A stretch of DNA of 64,000 bases from Blautia sp. (GTDB lineage Bacteria > Bacillota > Clostridia > Lachnospirales > Lachnospiraceae). The notes under the pieces are model-generated. The model saw only the letters and a list, made by a program, of their open reading frames with translations, was not told the DNA's origin and searched no databases. This document shows positions 9,835 through 16,306 of the stretch, in pieces (position 1 is the first letter of the stretch; the number at the start of each line of letters is the position of its first letter). The position numbers and the translations under genes were made by a program. The stretch lies in NCBI GenBank assembly GCA_023663685.1, contig JAMPHB010000003.1:1-64000 (forward strand), written 5' to 3'.

Positions 9835-10827
9835 ATGGGGTTATTTGGCAGTAAGGCAAAAGAGGACAGTGCGCTGCAGGAGCAGAGAGAGCTGCAGGAG
9901 CTTCTTGCACAGGTTGATAATTATGCACGAAAACTTGCAGAATCGCTGAACAAAGTAGGAGACAAGCTGAGTATGACGGTGGAGAACTCCACGCAGGTTT
10001 CCAGCACCATGCAGGAATTTTCCGCGACAATTCAGGAGATGACCGCGAATATCACAGAGATATCCAATGTGATGGAGGGGATGAACACATCCTTCCAGGA
10101 GATGAATGAGGAGGCGGAGGACGGCGCAAAATACGCCGAGAACAGCAATCAGGAGGCTCTCGAGATTATGTCGAGATCCGAGAAGGAGCGCAAGGAGGTT
10201 GAGGAGCGCGCCGTGGCTGTAGAGCAGGCCTTGAAGGAGAAGATTAAGCAGTCGAACGAGGCACAGAAGATCACGGATCTGACGGCAAATATTCTGGAGA
10301 TTGCAGACCAGACCAATCTGCTGGCGCTCAACGCTTCGATTGAGGCGGCGAGAGCGGGTGAGGCGGGAAGAGGCTTTGCCGTGGTTGCAGATGAGATCAC
10401 AAAGCTTGCGGCGGATTCCAGCGCGACAGCCAGCCAGATTAAGGAGATTTCCAACACGGTTATCACGGCGGTGTCGGATCTGGCCAACGAGGCGGCCAAG
10501 GTAGTCGATTTTATGAAGGAGAAGATCATCGGCAGCTACGGTGAGCTGGTGGATGTCGGCAATAAGTACCAGAACGATTCCAAGAATATGTACGACAAGA
10601 TGCAGGATTTCGCCCAGATGTCCAGGAATCTGTTAGAGCAGGTCGGAACCTCTGCCAATTCCGTGATGGCAATGTCCACGGCTGCGCAGGAGGTGTCTTC
10701 CGCTATCAGCGATATGACGCAGAATGTCACCTCAATCAACGGATATATGGAGGAGATTCAGGCGGGCAATGAGGAGAACGACCAGACGGCCAGTGAGCTT
10801 CTGAGATATATTCAGACAAAAAGATAA
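9835..10827 (+). CDS. Cytoplasmic methyl-accepting chemotaxis protein-like signalling protein
   Basis: A 330-residue coiled-coil protein with no membrane segment or sensor domain. The highly conserved receptor hairpin tip is intact ([33 protein letters not shown], about residues 155-187 in two flanking helices), so it can be expected to contact CheA/CheW. The first 30 residues ([16 protein letters not shown]) are short and charged, leaving no obvious ligand-binding part. The ATG follows GGAGGAG. No chemotaxis or flagellar genes adjoin it; a second, more degenerate relative lies at 60339. Confidence 0.85.
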
Positions 10828-10902: not shown

Positions 10903-10944
10903 CATAAGATTTATGCATATGATGTCATATGCATTTTTCTTATG
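10903..10944 (+). promoter_or_regulatory. Leader hairpin of the Tad/Flp-like locus
   Basis: Imperfect inverted repeat CATAAGA ... TGCATATGA / TCATATGCA ... TCTTATG in the untranslated leader, about 60 bp before the first gene. It could affect mRNA stability or translation; no T-run follows, so it is not a plain terminator. Confidence 0.4.
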
Positions 10945-11004
10945 CCCAAAAACGCCTTTCGAAGATGCATGTGGCAGGCACAGCACGGAGAAAGGATAAG
11001 AAGA

Positions 11005-11190
11005 ATGAAAGAGATTTTTCAGGAGTACGGAGGCGTACTGATTACAGTAGTAGCAATTCTGGCAGTGATTCTGGTCATTACGGCGGTTGTCGGTAATGAC
11101 GCGGGCGGCCCGATCGGGACCGCATTTTCCAATCTGATTGACAATTTTATTGCGCAGGCGAATGCCAATACCGGAATTTCCGGGAATTAG
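11005..11190 (+). CDS. Leaderless Flp-type pilin-like protein
   Basis: A 61-residue protein with one hydrophobic helix directly after a short N-terminus: M-K-E-I-F-Q-E-Y-G, then VLITVVAILAVILVI. The EYG-plus-helix pattern and the following GPIGTAFSNL match the mature part of Flp (type IVb) pilins, but the positively charged leader with a prepilin-peptidase Gly is absent. The ATG at 11005 has a good site (GGAGAAAGGA); an ATG at 10942 would add 21 residues but has no ribosome site. It sits 9 bp before the TadA-like ATPase gene, so it probably encodes the main fibre or pseudopilin subunit. Confidence 0.65.
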   Translation: MKEIFQEYGGVLITVVAILAVILVITAVVGNDAGGPIGTAFSNLIDNFIAQANANTGISGN

Positions 11191-11199
11191 AGGTAGGGC

Positions 11200-12276
11200 A
11201 TGGTACTGGGAAAAGAATATTTTGGCCCCTTGTGGAAATTTATCACCAACGGGGAAATCACGGACGTGGACTACAACGGGCGGGAGCTGTGGGTGACGAA
11301 TATCTACAACGAGCGCTACCGGGTGAGCCAGGGCTATGTGGATGAGAATCTGACCTCCTCGTTTGTGGAGCAGTTTACCCAGCGGATCTCGAATGTGGTG
11401 AGCCGCCAGTTTAACAAGAGAAGCCCGGAGCTGGAGGCGGAGACGACAGAGCTGCGGGTGACGGTGCTGCACGAGTCGGTGGCGCGCTCCGGGCGAAGCA
11501 TCAGCATAAGAAAGACGCCCCCGGTCATACGTCTGAACGCGAAAAAGGCCTTAGAGGAGAACTATTGCAGCAGGGAGGTGCTCGCCCTCCTTATCAACTG
11601 TGTGAGGGCGCGGATGAACTTTATTTTCTGTGGGATGCCGGGGATCGGCAAGACGGAGTGCGTCAAGTTCTTTTCGGGCTATATTCCGGGAAATGAGCGC
11701 GTCATTACCATTGAGGATACGATGGAGCTTCGCTACGCTGTGACGAATCCCGGAAAAGACTGTATCGAGCTTCGGGTGGAGCCGGAGCTGTTTAGTTATG
11801 CCGACGCAATCAAGGCAAGCCTGCGCTTAAATCCCGGCTGGATCATGCTCTCGGAGGCGCGCTCCAAGGAGGTGAAATATCTTCTTGAGAGCTGGTCTAC
11901 GGGAGTTTCGGGTATGACGACATTACACACCGACGATGTGCGCAATATCCCGGACCGCATTCTGAATATGCTGGAGAGCCGGGTGGACGCGGATCGTCTG
12001 GAAAATGACGTCTATCAGGCGGTGGATATTGGCGTTCTGATTCGGAAAAAGCGCGGGGAGAGCAACAAGGTATACCGTTACATTGACCAGGTCTGCTTTT
12101 TCCTGAGGGAAAAAGGGAAAAATCATGTGGTTTCTGTGGTGCAGGACGGAGGGCTTGCAGTAAAGACGCTTCCTGAGAGCCTGCGGGGACGCTTTGCCCG
12201 GGCACAGGTTTTGAATCCGTGGGTGAGCGCGGAGCTGGAGCGGGAGCTTTCCGGTGAGAAGGAGGTGGAGGCTTGA
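11200..12276 (+). CDS. TadA/CpaF-type secretion ATPase
   Basis: A 358-residue VirB11/TadA-family ATPase that would power assembly of a Tad/Flp-like fibre from the cytoplasmic side. Seen: an N-terminal domain, Walker A GMPGIGKTE near 145, Asp-box region ITIEDTMEL, a Walker B-like WIMLSEARSKE near 213, and the His-box TTLHTDDV. It is short compared with CpaF proteins, which usually carry a longer N-terminal extension. The gene overlaps the next by 4 bp, and a TTG start is used there. Confidence 0.85.
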   Translation: MVLGKEYFGPLWKFITNGEITDVDYNGRELWVTNIYNERYRVSQGYVDENLTSSFVEQFTQRISNVVSRQFNKRSPELEAETTELRVTVLHESVARSGRSISIRKTPPVIRLNAKKALEENYCSREVLALLINCVRARMNFIFCGMPGIGKTECVKFFSGYIPGNERVITIEDTMELRYAVTNPGKDCIELRVEPELFSYADAIKASLRLNPGWIMLSEARSKEVKYLLESWSTGVSGMTTLHTDDVRNIPDRILNMLESRVDADRLENDVYQAVDIGVLIRKKRGESNKVYRYIDQVCFFLREKGKNHVVSVVQDGGLAVKTLPESLRGRFARAQVLNPWVSAELERELSGEKEVEA

Positions 12277-13652
12277 TTTATCTGGCATTTCTGGTGGCGA
12301 TGTACACGCTTGCGCTCCTGCTTCGCTTACACTGGATCACCGCGCTGCTTTTGACACTCTATGGGCTGATGGTGCTGCCAAAGCATTGCAGGCTTTATCA
12401 GGGGATGCTTTTGCAGAGAAAGAGGTTTACAGAGGCGGCGGAGTATCTGGATACGCTGCTCTACGCTTTCTCCAAGGAGGAGAAGGTGGATATTGCCCTC
12501 GAGAATGTGGAGGCCGCCATGCACGGCAGTATGCAGAGGGTCGTGCGCGACTCGCTTGACCATCTGCGCATGACATACGACGATACCGACGTGATGCGGG
12601 AATCCTTAAGGCGGATTGAGGAAGCTTACCCGTGTGCAAGAATCGCGACGGTACATGATTTTGTTGTCCATGTCGAAAATTATGGCGGGCGTATCGAGCG
12701 GGCCGTTGATCTGCTGCTCTCGGACAAGAAGCGCTGGGAGAAGCGGATTTTGCTGGCGATGAAGGAACGCTCAAAAATGTTTACCGACATTATCATGTCC
12801 ATTGCTGCATCACTTATAATCTGCGGGATTATTTTATATATGCCGGTGATGGACATGGATATCAGTAAAAATGTAATTTGTCAGGCGCTGACAGCCGTGA
12901 TGCTGGTGCTGGACGAGAGGATTTTGCTTCGGGCACAGAAAATGATGGCGCCGGACTGGCTTTTGATGGATCTGGACAGTGATCCTAAGGATAAAAAGCG
13001 CATGGAGGACTACAAAAATTATTGCGCCGCAAAGGAGCAGCGATTGTCGCTGGTTTTTGCGCTCCCCTGCATACTGGGAGCGGGAGCTGCCTTCCGGTTT
13101 GGAAAAAGCGTCCTGACGGCGGGGCTCCTTGCACTTTCCCTTCTGATGCTGAACCAGCACAGGCTTGGACACGGGCTGGCAGGGAGAAATCTCAGAAAGA
13201 GCATTCAGTGCGCATTTCCGACCTGGCTTTTGGATATTGTATTGCTTTTGCAGAGCGAGAATGTGCAGATGTCCATGCGCAAATCCGTGGAGCATGTCCC
13301 GGCGGTGCTGGAATCGGAACTTTTGCTGTTAAATGACAGGCTGGAGCTGGAGCCGGAGGCGGCAGAGCCCTATCATGCCTTTTTGCAGGACTTTGAGATT
13401 CCAGAGGTTCATGCGGCGATGAGTATGCTGTTTTCCATATCCATGGGGCACAGCCTGCAGGCGGACAGACAGCTTTCCGAGCTGATTGACCGGAATCTTG
13501 CGATGCTTGACGCGGCGGAGAAGGAGCGTCTGGCAAACCTTTCCAGCGGCATGTATCTTTTGTTTCTGGCTCCGGTGCTCACGGCATCCTTTAAGCTGGT
13601 GGTGGATATGGCTGTGTTTATGTTGTCCTTTATCACGGGAGTTGGAATTTGA
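12273..13652 (+). CDS. Tad-like inner-membrane platform protein (TadB/TadC-like)
   Basis: A 459-residue membrane protein with hydrophobic segments at the N-terminus (about 1-35), near 170-195, at 255-295 as a pair, and at the extreme C-terminus (430-459), with long charged cytoplasmic parts between. This is the layout of two T2SSF-like halves in one chain and fits the platform that partners a TadA ATPase; sequence similarity itself is weak to my eye. Start is TTG at 12273, in ATGA-like overlap with the ATPase stop, supported by GAAGGAGG; the first ATG (12300) would remove part of the first membrane segment. Confidence 0.6.
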   Translation: MIYLAFLVAMYTLALLLRLHWITALLLTLYGLMVLPKHCRLYQGMLLQRKRFTEAAEYLDTLLYAFSKEEKVDIALENVEAAMHGSMQRVVRDSLDHLRMTYDDTDVMRESLRRIEEAYPCARIATVHDFVVHVENYGGRIERAVDLLLSDKKRWEKRILLAMKERSKMFTDIIMSIAASLIICGIILYMPVMDMDISKNVICQALTAVMLVLDERILLRAQKMMAPDWLLMDLDSDPKDKKRMEDYKNYCAAKEQRLSLVFALPCILGAGAAFRFGKSVLTAGLLALSLLMLNQHRLGHGLAGRNLRKSIQCAFPTWLLDIVLLLQSENVQMSMRKSVEHVPAVLESELLLLNDRLELEPEAAEPYHAFLQDFEIPEVHAAMSMLFSISMGHSLQADRQLSELIDRNLAMLDAAEKERLANLSSGMYLLFLAPVLTASFKLVVDMAVFMLSFITGVGI

Positions 13653-13661
13653 GGAGGGAAA

Positions 13662-14039
13662 ATGAGTCAGGTTATCAAGACTTTTCTGGGTGTGTTTTTG
13701 ATTCTTTTTATGACCTCGGCGGCGCTGGGGATTCTGTCGGCTTACTTAGGCGTCATGGGGGCGCAGGATCTGCAGGCGCAGATGGTGGATGAGATTGAGA
13801 ACAGCAATTTTGCTTCGGGGGTAGCGCAGGAATGCTTTGCCCGCGCGGAGGAGGCCGGCTGTGAGCTGGCGGTCACTTATTACTATGATGGCGGAGGAAC
13901 CACGCGCTGCGTGAGGGCTTCCCAGCTCCCATCGAATACCGGAAGCGTGACGATGGCGAGGGTGGAGCTTACCTTTCCGCTGGAAATGAAGATATTTGGC
14001 TTTCGGAAGGAGCATACCTTTCGGGGCTATGCGAAATAG
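13662..14039 (+). CDS. TadE-like minor pseudopilin candidate
   Basis: A 125-residue protein with one N-terminal membrane helix (residues about 6-30, FLGVFLILFMTSAALGILSAYLG) and a small extracytoplasmic domain rich in beta-forming residues, containing two Cys (ECFARAEEAGC) and a later Cys. This fits TadE/TadF-like minor subunits in size and topology, but no clear signature is present. The ATG is preceded by GAGGAGG. It lies between the platform gene and two tiny membrane-protein genes in an unbroken same-strand run. Confidence 0.5.
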   Translation: MSQVIKTFLGVFLILFMTSAALGILSAYLGVMGAQDLQAQMVDEIENSNFASGVAQECFARAEEAGCELAVTYYYDGGGTTRCVRASQLPSNTGSVTMARVELTFPLEMKIFGFRKEHTFRGYAK

Positions 14040-14050
14040 GAGGAGAAGAT

Positions 14051-14158
14051 ATGCAGCAGTTGATTGAGGAATACGGTGCGGGAGCGGCTATGCTGTTTCT
14101 TGGAACGGGAATACTGGCGGCGTTTTATACTTTTTTGACATTATTGGCGGAGGTGTAA
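14051..14158 (+). CDS. 35-residue Flp-like membrane peptide
   Basis: Encodes M-Q-Q-L-I-E-E-Y-G-A-G then a single hydrophobic helix ending ...LLAEV. The E-Y-G just before the helix matches the peptides at 11005 and 14160. A strong AGGAGGAG precedes the ATG, and the next gene starts 2 bp after its stop, so translation is well supported despite the size. Function is unknown; a fibre subunit or assembly accessory is possible. Confidence 0.55.
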   Translation: MQQLIEEYGAGAAMLFLGTGILAAFYTFLTLLAEV

Positions 14159-14159
14159 T

Positions 14160-14306
14160 ATGAAAGAGGTGATCAGAGAATACGGAAGTGCCGTGATTGC
14201 GGCAGTTGGAGCATTTTTGCTTTTTGCCATTGTCGGGCAGATGGTTTTTTGCCCGGATGGGATGCTGGGGCAGATGGTACAGCTCTGGGGAAACGGGGGA
14301 TGCTGA
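14160..14306 (+). CDS. 48-residue Flp-like membrane peptide
   Basis: Begins M-K-E-V-I-R-E-Y-G, followed by a hydrophobic helix (AVIAAVGAFLLFAIVGQMVF) and a short tail with two Cys. Its first nine residues are close to those of the 61-residue pilin-like protein at 11005 (M-K-E-I-F-Q-E-Y-G). GGAGG lies just before the ATG, overlapping the end of the previous gene, and the following gene starts 2 bp after the stop. It looks like a third leaderless Flp-like subunit. Confidence 0.55.
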   Translation: MKEVIREYGSAVIAAVGAFLLFAIVGQMVFCPDGMLGQMVQLWGNGGC

Positions 14307-14307
14307 T

Positions 14308-14799
14308 ATGAAGCAGGTCATTCTCGGGCTTTTGGGCACGGCCATCGTTATTTACACGGTGGTCTCCTGTCTGTCCATTTACAGTATTTCCAGCCGGAGA
14401 AATGAGATGGAAAACTGTCTTGCGACGGTGCTGAAACAAAATATGGACGAGTATTACGTCCGGCTTGTGCCTACATGGGTCAAAAAGGAGAAGCAGGAGG
14501 AGAAAGAAACAAAGCACAGGAAGTCCGGAGAGACAAAAAAGGAAGGGGAAAAGAAGGAGGACGAGGACGAGTGGGAGCTCGTGTATGTTCCGATGCGCAA
14601 ATGCAGTGACGCGCAGGTGGAGGCTTTTGTGAAGCAGGATCTCACCGGGCAGCTTCGCTCAGATTCCAGGGTGCGCATCTCGGTTTATGCCTGCGATATG
14701 GAAAAGGGGATACTTTCTGTGGGAATCACGGAGCAGTTCTATCTTCCGAACGGTATGGAAAAGACGATCCGGTGCAGTAAGACGCTGGTGGTAGAATGA
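14308..14799 (+). CDS. Single-pass membrane protein of the Tad-like locus (TadF/TadE-like position)
   Basis: A 163-residue protein: N-terminal membrane helix (residues 3-25), then an exposed part with a strongly charged Lys/Glu linker (about 55-85, KEKQEEKETKHRKSGETK) and a C-terminal domain with two Cys ending KTIRCSKTLVVE. The topology suits a minor pilin or anchor. The ATG at 14308 is chosen by coupling to the stop of the previous gene; a longer frame from 14197 overlaps that gene. No family is recognised. Confidence 0.5.
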   Translation: MKQVILGLLGTAIVIYTVVSCLSIYSISSRRNEMENCLATVLKQNMDEYYVRLVPTWVKKEKQEEKETKHRKSGETKKEGEKKEDEDEWELVYVPMRKCSDAQVEAFVKQDLTGQLRSDSRVRISVYACDMEKGILSVGITEQFYLPNGMEKTIRCSKTLVVE

Positions 14800-14809
14800 G
14801 GAGGTATTT

Positions 14810-16306
14810 TTGAGAGGGATACATTTTATTAAAATGAGCGGCAGGAGGCTGTTTGCCTTTATACTGGCTGTGGCTCTGCTGCTTGGAGGAATTGCGCCCA
14901 CGGCGGTGAGCGCCCATGTGTTTAACAATGCCTATACATATTACAATGAAAACGGCAATTCTGTGAGATTTTGGAAGGTCAACGAGAAGGACGGCGAGAT
15001 CTGCTATGCGACAAGCGCAAAAACCGCAACCACGAATGTGCGGTATAAGACGCTGGGCTGGAAGGTGAGCGTGCGGGATATGAGCGGAAAGAAGCAGCAG
15101 ACCATCTATTTTAAGCTGGGCGGTTCTTACATGAAGAGGGTCGATTCCCGACAGAAATCCGGGTATGAGTACAATCTTTACGCGCTGATGCTCAGCAGCC
15201 TGAAAAAGAGGATGAACGAAAAGGCAAAGCAGGTGCTGGAGGAGGGCAGCTGTACGATGACAGTGGACGCCTGTATGACCGTGGTAAGAGGGAGTGAAGT
15301 CAGGGGAGGCATGGATGACAATGGGAATTTTACAGGGAAGGTCTATACCGACTATGACGGAATTGCGGGAGCTGAAAACTGGAACGCAGCCGCTGTGAAA
15401 TCCCTCAAAAGCTATTTTGATAAGGAGGTGAAGGGACTTTTCTATGACATAAAAGTCAAAAAATCTGCGGGAATCAAAGAGGCGACCGGAAGCGGACATT
15501 ATCTGTACGGCACAAAGCTGACAGCTTCCGCCGAAGTGAAAAAGGGCTACACCTTTGAGGGCTGGACGGGAATGAAGTCCTGTGACAGCATGGACTGTAC
15601 CTTTTACGTCAATGACGCGGGTACATTGACCGCGGAGGCGTCCCCCATTCAGATACAGATTGTGTATCACCGGAATTTATCTGCGGCGGATACCATGCTC
15701 GTGCTGCAGACGGTAGTATACGGACAAAAGGATAAGCGGATGCGTAAGGAAAACTGGACGAAGGATGGAAAAAGCCCGGTTGGCTATGCCCTGTCGCAGG
15801 GGGCAGTGGAAGCCTCCTACGCGCTGGACGCTAAGATTACAGACGGGTGGATACTCAAATATGCGCCGCAGGTGCATTTGTTTGCGGTGTGGCCGGGGGA
15901 GGAGGAAGATAAAATAATTTTACCCCCGGATGAGACACCGGAGGATCCAGATCCTGACGATCCGGACCCTGATGATTCAGACCCTGATGATTCCGAGCCT
16001 GACGATCCCGGCGATCCGGCACCGGACGATTCCGAGCCTGACGATCCCGGCGATCCGGCGCCGGACGATTCAGAGCCGGACGAGCCAGAGCCTGATATAC
16101 CCGAGCCCACGCCTCCGTCGAAAAACGATTTGCCGGCAGTTGCGCCGATTCGTATGCGCTTTATCAGTAAAAAGTATTTTGAGAATGCCTCGGGGCAGCT
16201 GGTGGCAGGAAGCCGGGGAGGTCTTTCCTCCGGCTCCCGCTGGGCGGTAGATCTGTCTTTGCGGAGTCTGCTAAGATCCGTGCTTATGCGGGCGGAGCCA
16301 ATATGA
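14810..16306 (+). CDS. Secreted InlB-like repeat protein with Asp/Pro/Glu-rich stalk
   Basis: A 498-residue protein with a Sec signal peptide (hydrophobic core LFAFILAVALLLGGIAP, cleavage after VSA near 35), an uncharacterised region to about 210, an InlB_B-like unit (YTFEGWTG ... GTLTAEA) near 245-275, and an acidic stalk (about 375-435) with tandem 13-residue units DSEPDDPGDPAPD. Start is TTG at 14810, set by GAGGAGG five bases away; an ATG at 14834 has no ribosome site. It closes the Tad-like locus and could be its displayed or exported product. The last 25 residues look out of phase (see findings). Confidence 0.6.
   Translation: MRGIHFIKMSGRRLFAFILAVALLLGGIAPTAVSAHVFNNAYTYYNENGNSVRFWKVNEKDGEICYATSAKTATTNVRYKTLGWKVSVRDMSGKKQQTIYFKLGGSYMKRVDSRQKSGYEYNLYALMLSSLKKRMNEKAKQVLEEGSCTMTVDACMTVVRGSEVRGGMDDNGNFTGKVYTDYDGIAGAENWNAAAVKSLKSYFDKEVKGLFYDIKVKKSAGIKEATGSGHYLYGTKLTASAEVKKGYTFEGWTGMKSCDSMDCTFYVNDAGTLTAEASPIQIQIVYHRNLSAADTMLVLQTVVYGQKDKRMRKENWTKDGKSPVGYALSQGAVEASYALDAKITDGWILKYAPQVHLFAVWPGEEEDKIILPPDETPEDPDPDDPDPDDSDPDDSEPDDPGDPAPDDSEPDDPGDPAPDDSEPDEPEPDIPEPTPPSKNDLPAVAPIRMRFISKKYFENASGQLVAGSRGGLSSGSRWAVDLSLRSLLRSVLMRAEPI
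15989..16066 (+). repeat. Two tandem 39-bp repeats in the acidic stalk
   Basis: Units at 15989-16027 and 16028-16066 are nearly identical and encode D-S-E-P-D-D-P-G-D-P-A-P-D. Shorter related units precede them. Such repeats can change number by slippage. Confidence 0.75.

Follow-up and report, generated by a model that had tools for sequence, protein, structure and literature searches.

The window analysed here comprises the first 64,000 nucleotides of contig JAMPHB010000003.1 (assembly GCA_023663685.1) from a Blautia sp. of the family Lachnospiraceae, whose genome (G000) is 2.3 Mb and 82% complete. Eight genes at 11005-16306 on the plus strand look like a single operon. Three encode short peptides in which Glu-Tyr-Gly stands directly before a single helix (the EYG peptides), and the others encode a secretion ATPase, a platform protein, two further transmembrane (TM) proteins and a large secreted protein. 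Pfam and NCBIfam name just the ATPase and the InlB-type repeat of the secreted protein above cut-off; signal peptides and leaders, like several of the gene names, were called by eye. The genes are as follows.

11005..11190, plus strand: EYG1, 61 amino acids (aa), leaderless Flp-like peptide, candidate major pilin
11200..12276, plus strand: TadA/VirB11-type secretion ATPase, 358 aa
12273..13652, plus strand: platform protein, probable two-domain fusion, 459 aa, TTG start
13662..14039, plus strand: P0004, 125 aa, N-terminal TM helix and alpha/beta head, candidate minor pilin
14051..14158, plus strand: EYG2, 35 aa, leaderless peptide
14160..14306, plus strand: EYG3, 48 aa, leaderless peptide
14308..14799, plus strand: P0007, 163 aa, N-terminal TM helix and extracytoplasmic domain, candidate tip-coupling minor pilin
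14810..16306, plus strand: P0008, 498 aa, secreted (signal peptide called by eye, start codon uncertain), InlB B-repeat and C-terminal RFIS...LLR region, candidate tip adhesin

A preliminary description of the locus took the EYG peptides to be Flp-like pilins that lack a leader and start at fixed codons, in a compact Tad-type locus for a minimal secretion or fibre system whose subunits need no prepilin peptidase.

The start register of the EYG peptides

The ATPase sequence, used as a query, retrieved 18 related loci, with Agathobacter and Roseburia among the named relatives, and a leaderless EYG peptide is encoded directly 5' of the ATPase gene in all 18 and in the window. Met1, Tyr8 and Gly9 are invariant in an alignment of 19 EYG1 homologues. 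For all three peptides the non-synonymous substitution rate (dN) is below the synonymous rate (dS) wherever dS could be estimated (it is undefined in five pairs), and third codon positions are the most changed, or tied for most, in each pair printed. The peptides are kept in syntenic loci, and none of the homologues seen carries a basic leader with its Gly.

We scanned 38 loci (the window, the 18 from the ATPase search and 19 others) in every frame for the pattern [EQ][YFHN]G ahead of a helix. This gave 90 sites, one of which falls within the ATPase/platform genes and is not considered further. In 88 of the remaining 89 sites an ATG, GTG or TTG codon stands exactly six residues before the Glu, which becomes residue 7, and the sole exception is a site cut by a contig end. 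A Shine–Dalgarno (SD)-like motif, defined by a lax pattern, precedes 86 of the 88 register starts. The antisense strand gave 2 sites. The three leaderless peptides with fixed starts of the preliminary description are therefore confirmed, with the qualification that the loci are not independent (L001 is close to a copy of the window, and L066 and L068 are near-identical), so that site counts overstate the number of evolutionary events. The strict pattern gave no site in three of the 38 loci (L071, L072 and L081), although L071 and L081 carry variants recognizable by eye.

Starts further upstream are not conserved. At 52 of the 88 sites there is no other ATG, GTG or TTG before an in-frame stop, and across the 88 sites only 8 further starts are preceded by an SD-like motif. 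A candidate start for EYG1 at 10942 was rejected because it is absent from the nearest relative, L001, in which the other upstream starts are 18 and 31 residues ahead of the Glu, against 18 and 27 in the window; an ATG at 10969 is common to both but has no SD-like motif. The L001 contig (JAMPCA010000011.1) is labelled Muribaculaceae (Bacteroidota), yet its ATPase is 97% identical to that of the window, and it is most likely a wrongly binned Lachnospiraceae contig.

The commonest pattern among the 68 distinct N-termini is M-[KEQ]-[EQ]-[ILFV]-[ILFV]-x-[EQ]-[YH]-G. We also made a count that does not use the motif, based on the 38 loci together with 20 loci of a second order (described below); these yield 221 distinct N-termini of SD-preceded open reading frames (ORFs) that begin with a helix. 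Glu or Gln is found at residue 7 in 90 of these, at residue 6 in 64, at residue 3 in 77 and at residue 8 in 9; the 90 with Glu7 or Gln7 have Tyr8 in 63 cases and Gly9 in 76, with Ala at position 9 in 6. By contrast, in 37 leader-bearing Flp pilins from 30 loci, most of which have a Gly-Gln-x-x-x-Glu-Tyr junction, the nearest usable Met lies anywhere from 9 to 44 residues before the Glu. What is kept constant in the EYG peptides is therefore the distance from the initiator Met to the Glu, which in sequence terms parallels the distance from the cleavage site to the Glu of ordinary pilins.

Glu7 lies two residues further from the N-terminus than Glu5 of a peptidase-trimmed Flp pilin. A class III leader with Glu at +5 is not present, as the implied cut would follow residue 2, which is Ala in 1 of the 68 distinct N-termini and Gly in none. 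Residue 2 is bulky in 63 of the 68. Methionine aminopeptidase leaves Met1 in place before a bulky second residue, and Met1 of the EYG peptides is probably retained.

The chief alternative is that the nine residues M...EYG are themselves the leader, and that an A24 peptidase acting in trans cuts after Gly9 to leave a helix without Glu5. The fixed register would then be a fixed leader length, Gly9 is near-invariant in the count above, and peptidases are available in trans in 61 of 62 genomes. Excerpts of the Pelicic review likewise have the class III leader invariably ending in Gly or Ala, and Glu5 frequent but not universal (PMC10191384). However, the first nine residues have a neutral or negative net charge in 64 of the 68 distinct N-termini, in 33 of 90 the would-be +1, residue 10, is charged, polar or a proline (Lys, Arg, Glu, Asp, Pro, Gln, Asn or His), and the EYG/EYA of canonical Flp pilins sits inside their mature part. 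P0004 and P0007 have no constant Gly or Ala at the position of Gly9, and would stay uncut. Judged on these N-termini, cleavage after Gly9 is disfavoured and appears quite unlikely.

Likeness to Flp pilins and the other operon proteins

In a profile–profile comparison EYG1 matches mature Flp pilins with a probability of 90.1% (score 31.95), and none of 200 local shuffles scored as well. This supports a resemblance of EYG1 to mature Flp pilins, although the sequence compared is short. When 4,842 ORFs were searched with a mature-Flp profile, EYG-type proteins took all of the top 8 rows (5 flagged by the pattern and 3 by eye; best E 0.002), a ranking driven in part by the shared motif itself.

The ATPase exceeds the cut-off for Pfam T2SSE (2.1e-18), and its Walker A, Walker B-like and His motifs are intact by eye. 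NCBIfam VirB11 (7e-28) and TadA (1.1e-21) both fall under their curated cut-offs. A match to CpaF at 2.6e-52 came from an alignment that held one canonical TadA row, and we do not claim CpaF as the nearest family; with that row removed CpaF (4.7e-25), VirB11 (1.4e-26) and archaeal GspE (2.3e-25) tie. By sequence the protein is TadA/VirB11-type, with a similarity that does not favour TadA over VirB11. No VirB4, VirD4 or VirB8-10 partner is named by Pfam or NCBIfam in the window operon, the relatives being judged from ORF lists only. A tree places all 57 ATPases from leaderless loci on one side (SH-aLRT 93) and all 19 canonical Tad ATPases on the other, a split that is partly built in because the leaderless rows were gathered by similarity to the proteins of the window, and that includes several long branches; no row came from L016 among the 58 leaderless loci, or from L143 and L150 among the 21 canonical ones. 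The best structural match of the platform protein is the type II secretion system (T2SS) platform EpsF, at a modest Z, and the protein is probably GspF-type with two domains fused.

The ATPase is just as close to VirB11, and the EYG peptides could accordingly be something other than pilins: a VirB11/TadA-like ATPase would drive a membrane complex in which they are fixed subunits with a single span, and EYG would be a docking motif for ATPase or platform. The SpoIIIA complex follows a comparable logic. Each operon encodes several different EYG peptides, some of only 32-35 aa, which would leave little filament surface, and none of the sequences has been demonstrated to polymerise. Against this stand the resemblance of EYG1 to mature Flp, the match of the platform to EpsF and the presence in sister loci of RcpC/CpaB and two platform genes, which belong to the usual Tad set. 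We regard a non-pilin complex as unlikely.

P0004 and P0007 each begin with a TM helix at the very N-terminus, without a leader by eye. The model of P0004 (pLDDT 90.0) has helices at residues 2-47 and 52-64 and four strands. Its Met1 is invariant in a 16-row alignment in which the start of one row (L013) was set at an inner Met by hand, and DUF4320 is matched below threshold in 2 of the 16 homologues. In the P0007 alignment the starts of L003, L005, L007 and L010 were likewise set by hand at an inner codon. An iterative search merged the two families when fusion proteins were in the set, but profile comparison did not (probability 2.4%), and we do not claim that they are homologous. In L012 residues 1-117 of a fusion protein resemble P0007 (8e-16) and residues 144-560 the L013 secreted protein (2e-91), to which residues 562-601 add another, weak segment (2e-4). 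In L075, a probable fusion, residues 1-139 resemble P0007 (3e-16) and the remainder holds a Listeria–Bacteroides repeat. These fusions to secreted proteins place the C-terminal side of P0007 outside the cell.

P0008 matches Pfam Flg_new_2 above cut-off (1.9e-6), the protein at its operon place in L070 has a TED thioester domain, and P0008 is probably an adhesin at the tip. Many secreted P0008-type proteins with differing middles have a common C-terminal region, RFIS.KYFED...GGL....SRW..D..LR.LLR..L, at which Pfam named no family in the searches made and which is possibly a docking or sorting signal. Asp/Pro-rich short repeats (PDDSEPDDPGDP) lie between the InlB-type repeat and this region of P0008 (window 15930-16120). 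The gene for the secreted protein follows that for P0007 in window-type loci, precedes it in L077-L079 and lies mid-operon in L123-L125.

Both this varying place and the conserved RFIS...LLR region, as a possible sorting signal in many operons, would suit a machine of another kind, in which a short T2SS-like pseudopilus of still leaderless subunits secretes the large InlB-repeat protein and bears no tip on the surface. The fusion to membrane-anchored P0007 in L012 and L075 is more readily explained for a tip subunit than for a substrate that is released, however, and in many loci the secreted protein has its own signal peptide by eye and would not require the machine for export. We consider secretion by such a pseudopilus improbable.

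The machinery is also less minimal than first described. That description is half right, but the window operon also encodes a large secreted protein and two TM proteins beyond the EYG peptides, and in many relatives there is a fourth protein of EYG type that often includes a globular part. In L066 and L068, EYG3 is separated from the fourth EYG protein by a 524-aa AAA-like ORF, ~3.6-5.2 kb past the ATPase start; the genomes of both loci have the system in two copies. The operon is flanked upstream by a gene for a soluble chemoreceptor-like protein (window 9835-10827), with a similar-looking ORF upstream in L005 (near 6572), and downstream by an Rpn nuclease gene. A functional link between the chemoreceptor-like gene and the operon is possible.

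Distribution, sister loci and peptidases

A platform profile matches 18 of 392 genomes of the order to which the window belongs and 2 of 398 in a sample of the phylum, the window's own genome being included in each count. The other match in the phylum sample (G441) comes, by eye, from a ParA-TadA-like locus of a different kind (L082). In a second order, that of G018, an Erysipelotrichaceae metagenome-assembled genome (MAG) according to its title, 27 of 118 genomes match. We fetched 20 of these 27 loci, and 18 have EYG-type sites, in register with ATG or GTG in 14 loci and with ATA in 4; the pattern gave no site in L127 and L131. The 27 sites printed reduce to 23, including EYA, EYI and ENI variants, after four were set aside (three P0004-type EFG sites and one spurious). 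ATG or GTG stands at the same place in 19 of the 23 and ATA in the other 4.

The ATA codons, in L130, L134, L135 and L137, lie at the expected leaderless start, ~2.5 kb past the ATPase start, with a strong G-rich SD 8 nt upstream. On this sequence evidence they are possibly natural AUA starts, which gene callers would miss; the alternative is an in-frame GTG three codons upstream that overlaps the SD.

In the second order, several loci encode the platform in two distinct genes and have one EYG peptide. RcpC/CpaB is encoded before the ATPase, above the Pfam cut-off, in all three sister loci tested, whereas Pfam and NCBIfam name none in the window operon. RcpC/CpaB and paired platform genes link the leaderless clade to Tad, and suggest that a fusion of platform genes took place in the window-type locus, from which RcpC was lost unless it had always been absent.

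As the preliminary description stated, the locus has no recognizable prepilin peptidase, secretin or TadZ: Pfam and NCBIfam name none among the operon proteins or the three neighbouring genes, and genes further upstream were judged by eye. No A24 match lies near any of 19 loci in 17 genomes, nor near any of 20 loci in 20 second-order genomes, as judged by position on contigs, some of them short. Elsewhere in the genome the situation differs. Of the 62 distinct genomes in which the ATPase or the platform was matched, 61 encode an A24 peptidase (18/19, 17/17 and 27/27 genomes in the three sets, with G018 in two of them), and the single genome without one, G015, is a 1.6 Mb MAG. Absence of the peptidase from the genome therefore fails as proof that the subunits are unprocessed. 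The strong evidence lies in the missing substrate and the fixed start, on which the subunits may need no peptidase, although processing by the enzymes in trans is possible.

G000 itself has 3 A24 matches, 2 of them over cut-off. It also has a leader-bearing Tad locus (L027, G000:C11:117001-136000) with a Flp1-like pilin (PF16982, 7.4e-22, L027:13038-13205), so that leader-bearing and leaderless systems coexist in one cell. L027 contains two A24-like genes 7.4 kb apart, one below cut-off, and another locus of G000, which looks like a type IV pilus locus, has its own A24 gene. A24 pairs with a spacing similar to that in L027 recur in many relatives.

A probable leaderless Tad-derived machine and its relation to known systems

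We consider it probable that the operon encodes a filament or pseudopilus machine derived from Tad (type IVc), with subunits made without a class III leader. The EYG peptides would insert as N-in, C-out signal anchors, in which case the translation start supplies the N-terminus that TadV would otherwise make and the inserted peptide already has its N-terminus near that of mature Flp. The motor of ATPase and platform would extract the subunits from the membrane into a short or long polymer, packed via Glu-Tyr contacts as in Tad pili; P0004 and P0007, the TM proteins with globular parts, would prime or cap this polymer, and the large secreted P0008 would sit at its tip as an adhesin. The fixed start, the ATPase and the probable platform are read from the sequence; fibre assembly, extraction, the tip position and the absence of processing are what we infer.

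In the excerpted account of the Caulobacter Tad pilus, the pilin has a 14-residue leader and its Glu19 (+5) bonds the Ala17 backbone and Tyr20 of other pilins (PMC11067988). Such contacts imply that a trimmed N-terminal amine may matter less there. By analogy, a Glu-Tyr-Gly kept behind two extra N-terminal residues would be compatible with contacts of the Caulobacter type.

Several results weigh against a leaderless Tad-derived machine. No filament has been seen. The best of the 200 shuffles comes near the real score (30.54), and Pfam Flp_Fap matches only 1 of 19 homologues (E 0.076). Tails taken alone show weak likeness: their median is -0.85 bits and that of 642 control tails -1.4 bits. Of the 42 tails, 14 exceed the 95th percentile of the controls, and the top-scoring tail is a control. 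The P0004 model has no clear match among solved structures, profile comparison gives no link between P0004 and P0007, and the ATPase families tie. The window operon lacks RcpC, TadZ and TadV, and the A24 peptidases elsewhere make processing in trans possible.

A wider proposal, on which we are evenly divided, is that a clade of type IV filaments in at least two orders of Bacillota gave up leader and peptidase, and that each subunit owes its assembly-competent N-terminus to ribosomal initiation at a fixed codon. If this is true, leader and peptidase, usually taken as defining type IV pilins, would be dispensable for extraction and polymerisation, and the clade would separate the role of the leader in insertion from that of the peptidase-made N-terminus in assembly. 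Type IV pilins are identified and defined by the cleaved class III leader, and PilFind searches for that leader, according to the available portions of two sources (PMC3244431, PMC10191384); a conserved leaderless clade would escape such searches. The locus further suggests that gut Lachnospiraceae, for example Roseburia faecis (L008), have a surface machine that includes InlB-repeat and thioester-type proteins; we found no study of it in the open-licence literature.

We rate the system as a previously undescribed variant of Tad, having found no description of leaderless Tad pilins, or of leaderless pilins with a fixed start, in the open-licence literature. Several known systems resemble it in part. 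Gram-positive tad-like loci reported by Imam et al. in 2011 have Tad-type genes and no protein with an apparent prepilin signal, but tadV and tadZ are present, and the excerpts describe no leaderless EYG peptides or fixed register (PMC3244431). MSH pilus loci, as set out in part of Denise et al. 2019, also have no peptidase gene in the locus and a peptidase elsewhere in the genome; they may borrow it from another system, whereas here no leader remains to be processed (PMC6668835). The Flp1-like pilin of G000 is a small single-helix pilin of a Tad locus in the same cell, but has a leader that ends, by eye, in Gly before IGVVEM, and its locus has two A24-like genes. In Erysipelotrichales, the available text on the Bulleidia extructa tad operon has it begin with a tadV peptidase gene (PMC12786226), showing that leader-type Tad also occurs in the second order.

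The closest comparison is with the Tad (type IVc, Flp) pilus itself. Features that appear to be shared are a TadA/CpaF-like ATPase with a probable platform, small Flp-like candidate pilins with Glu-Tyr-Gly before a single helix, candidate minor subunits that join a TM helix to a globular part, RcpC/CpaB in the sister loci and a possible modular tip, for which the Kil/TadEFG tips, as partly described, offer a comparison (PMC12075869). The system described here differs in that none of its subunits shows a leader and that TadV, TadZ and secretin are absent from the locus; Glu is residue 7 of the primary product and, in window-type loci, the platform is a single, probably fused protein.

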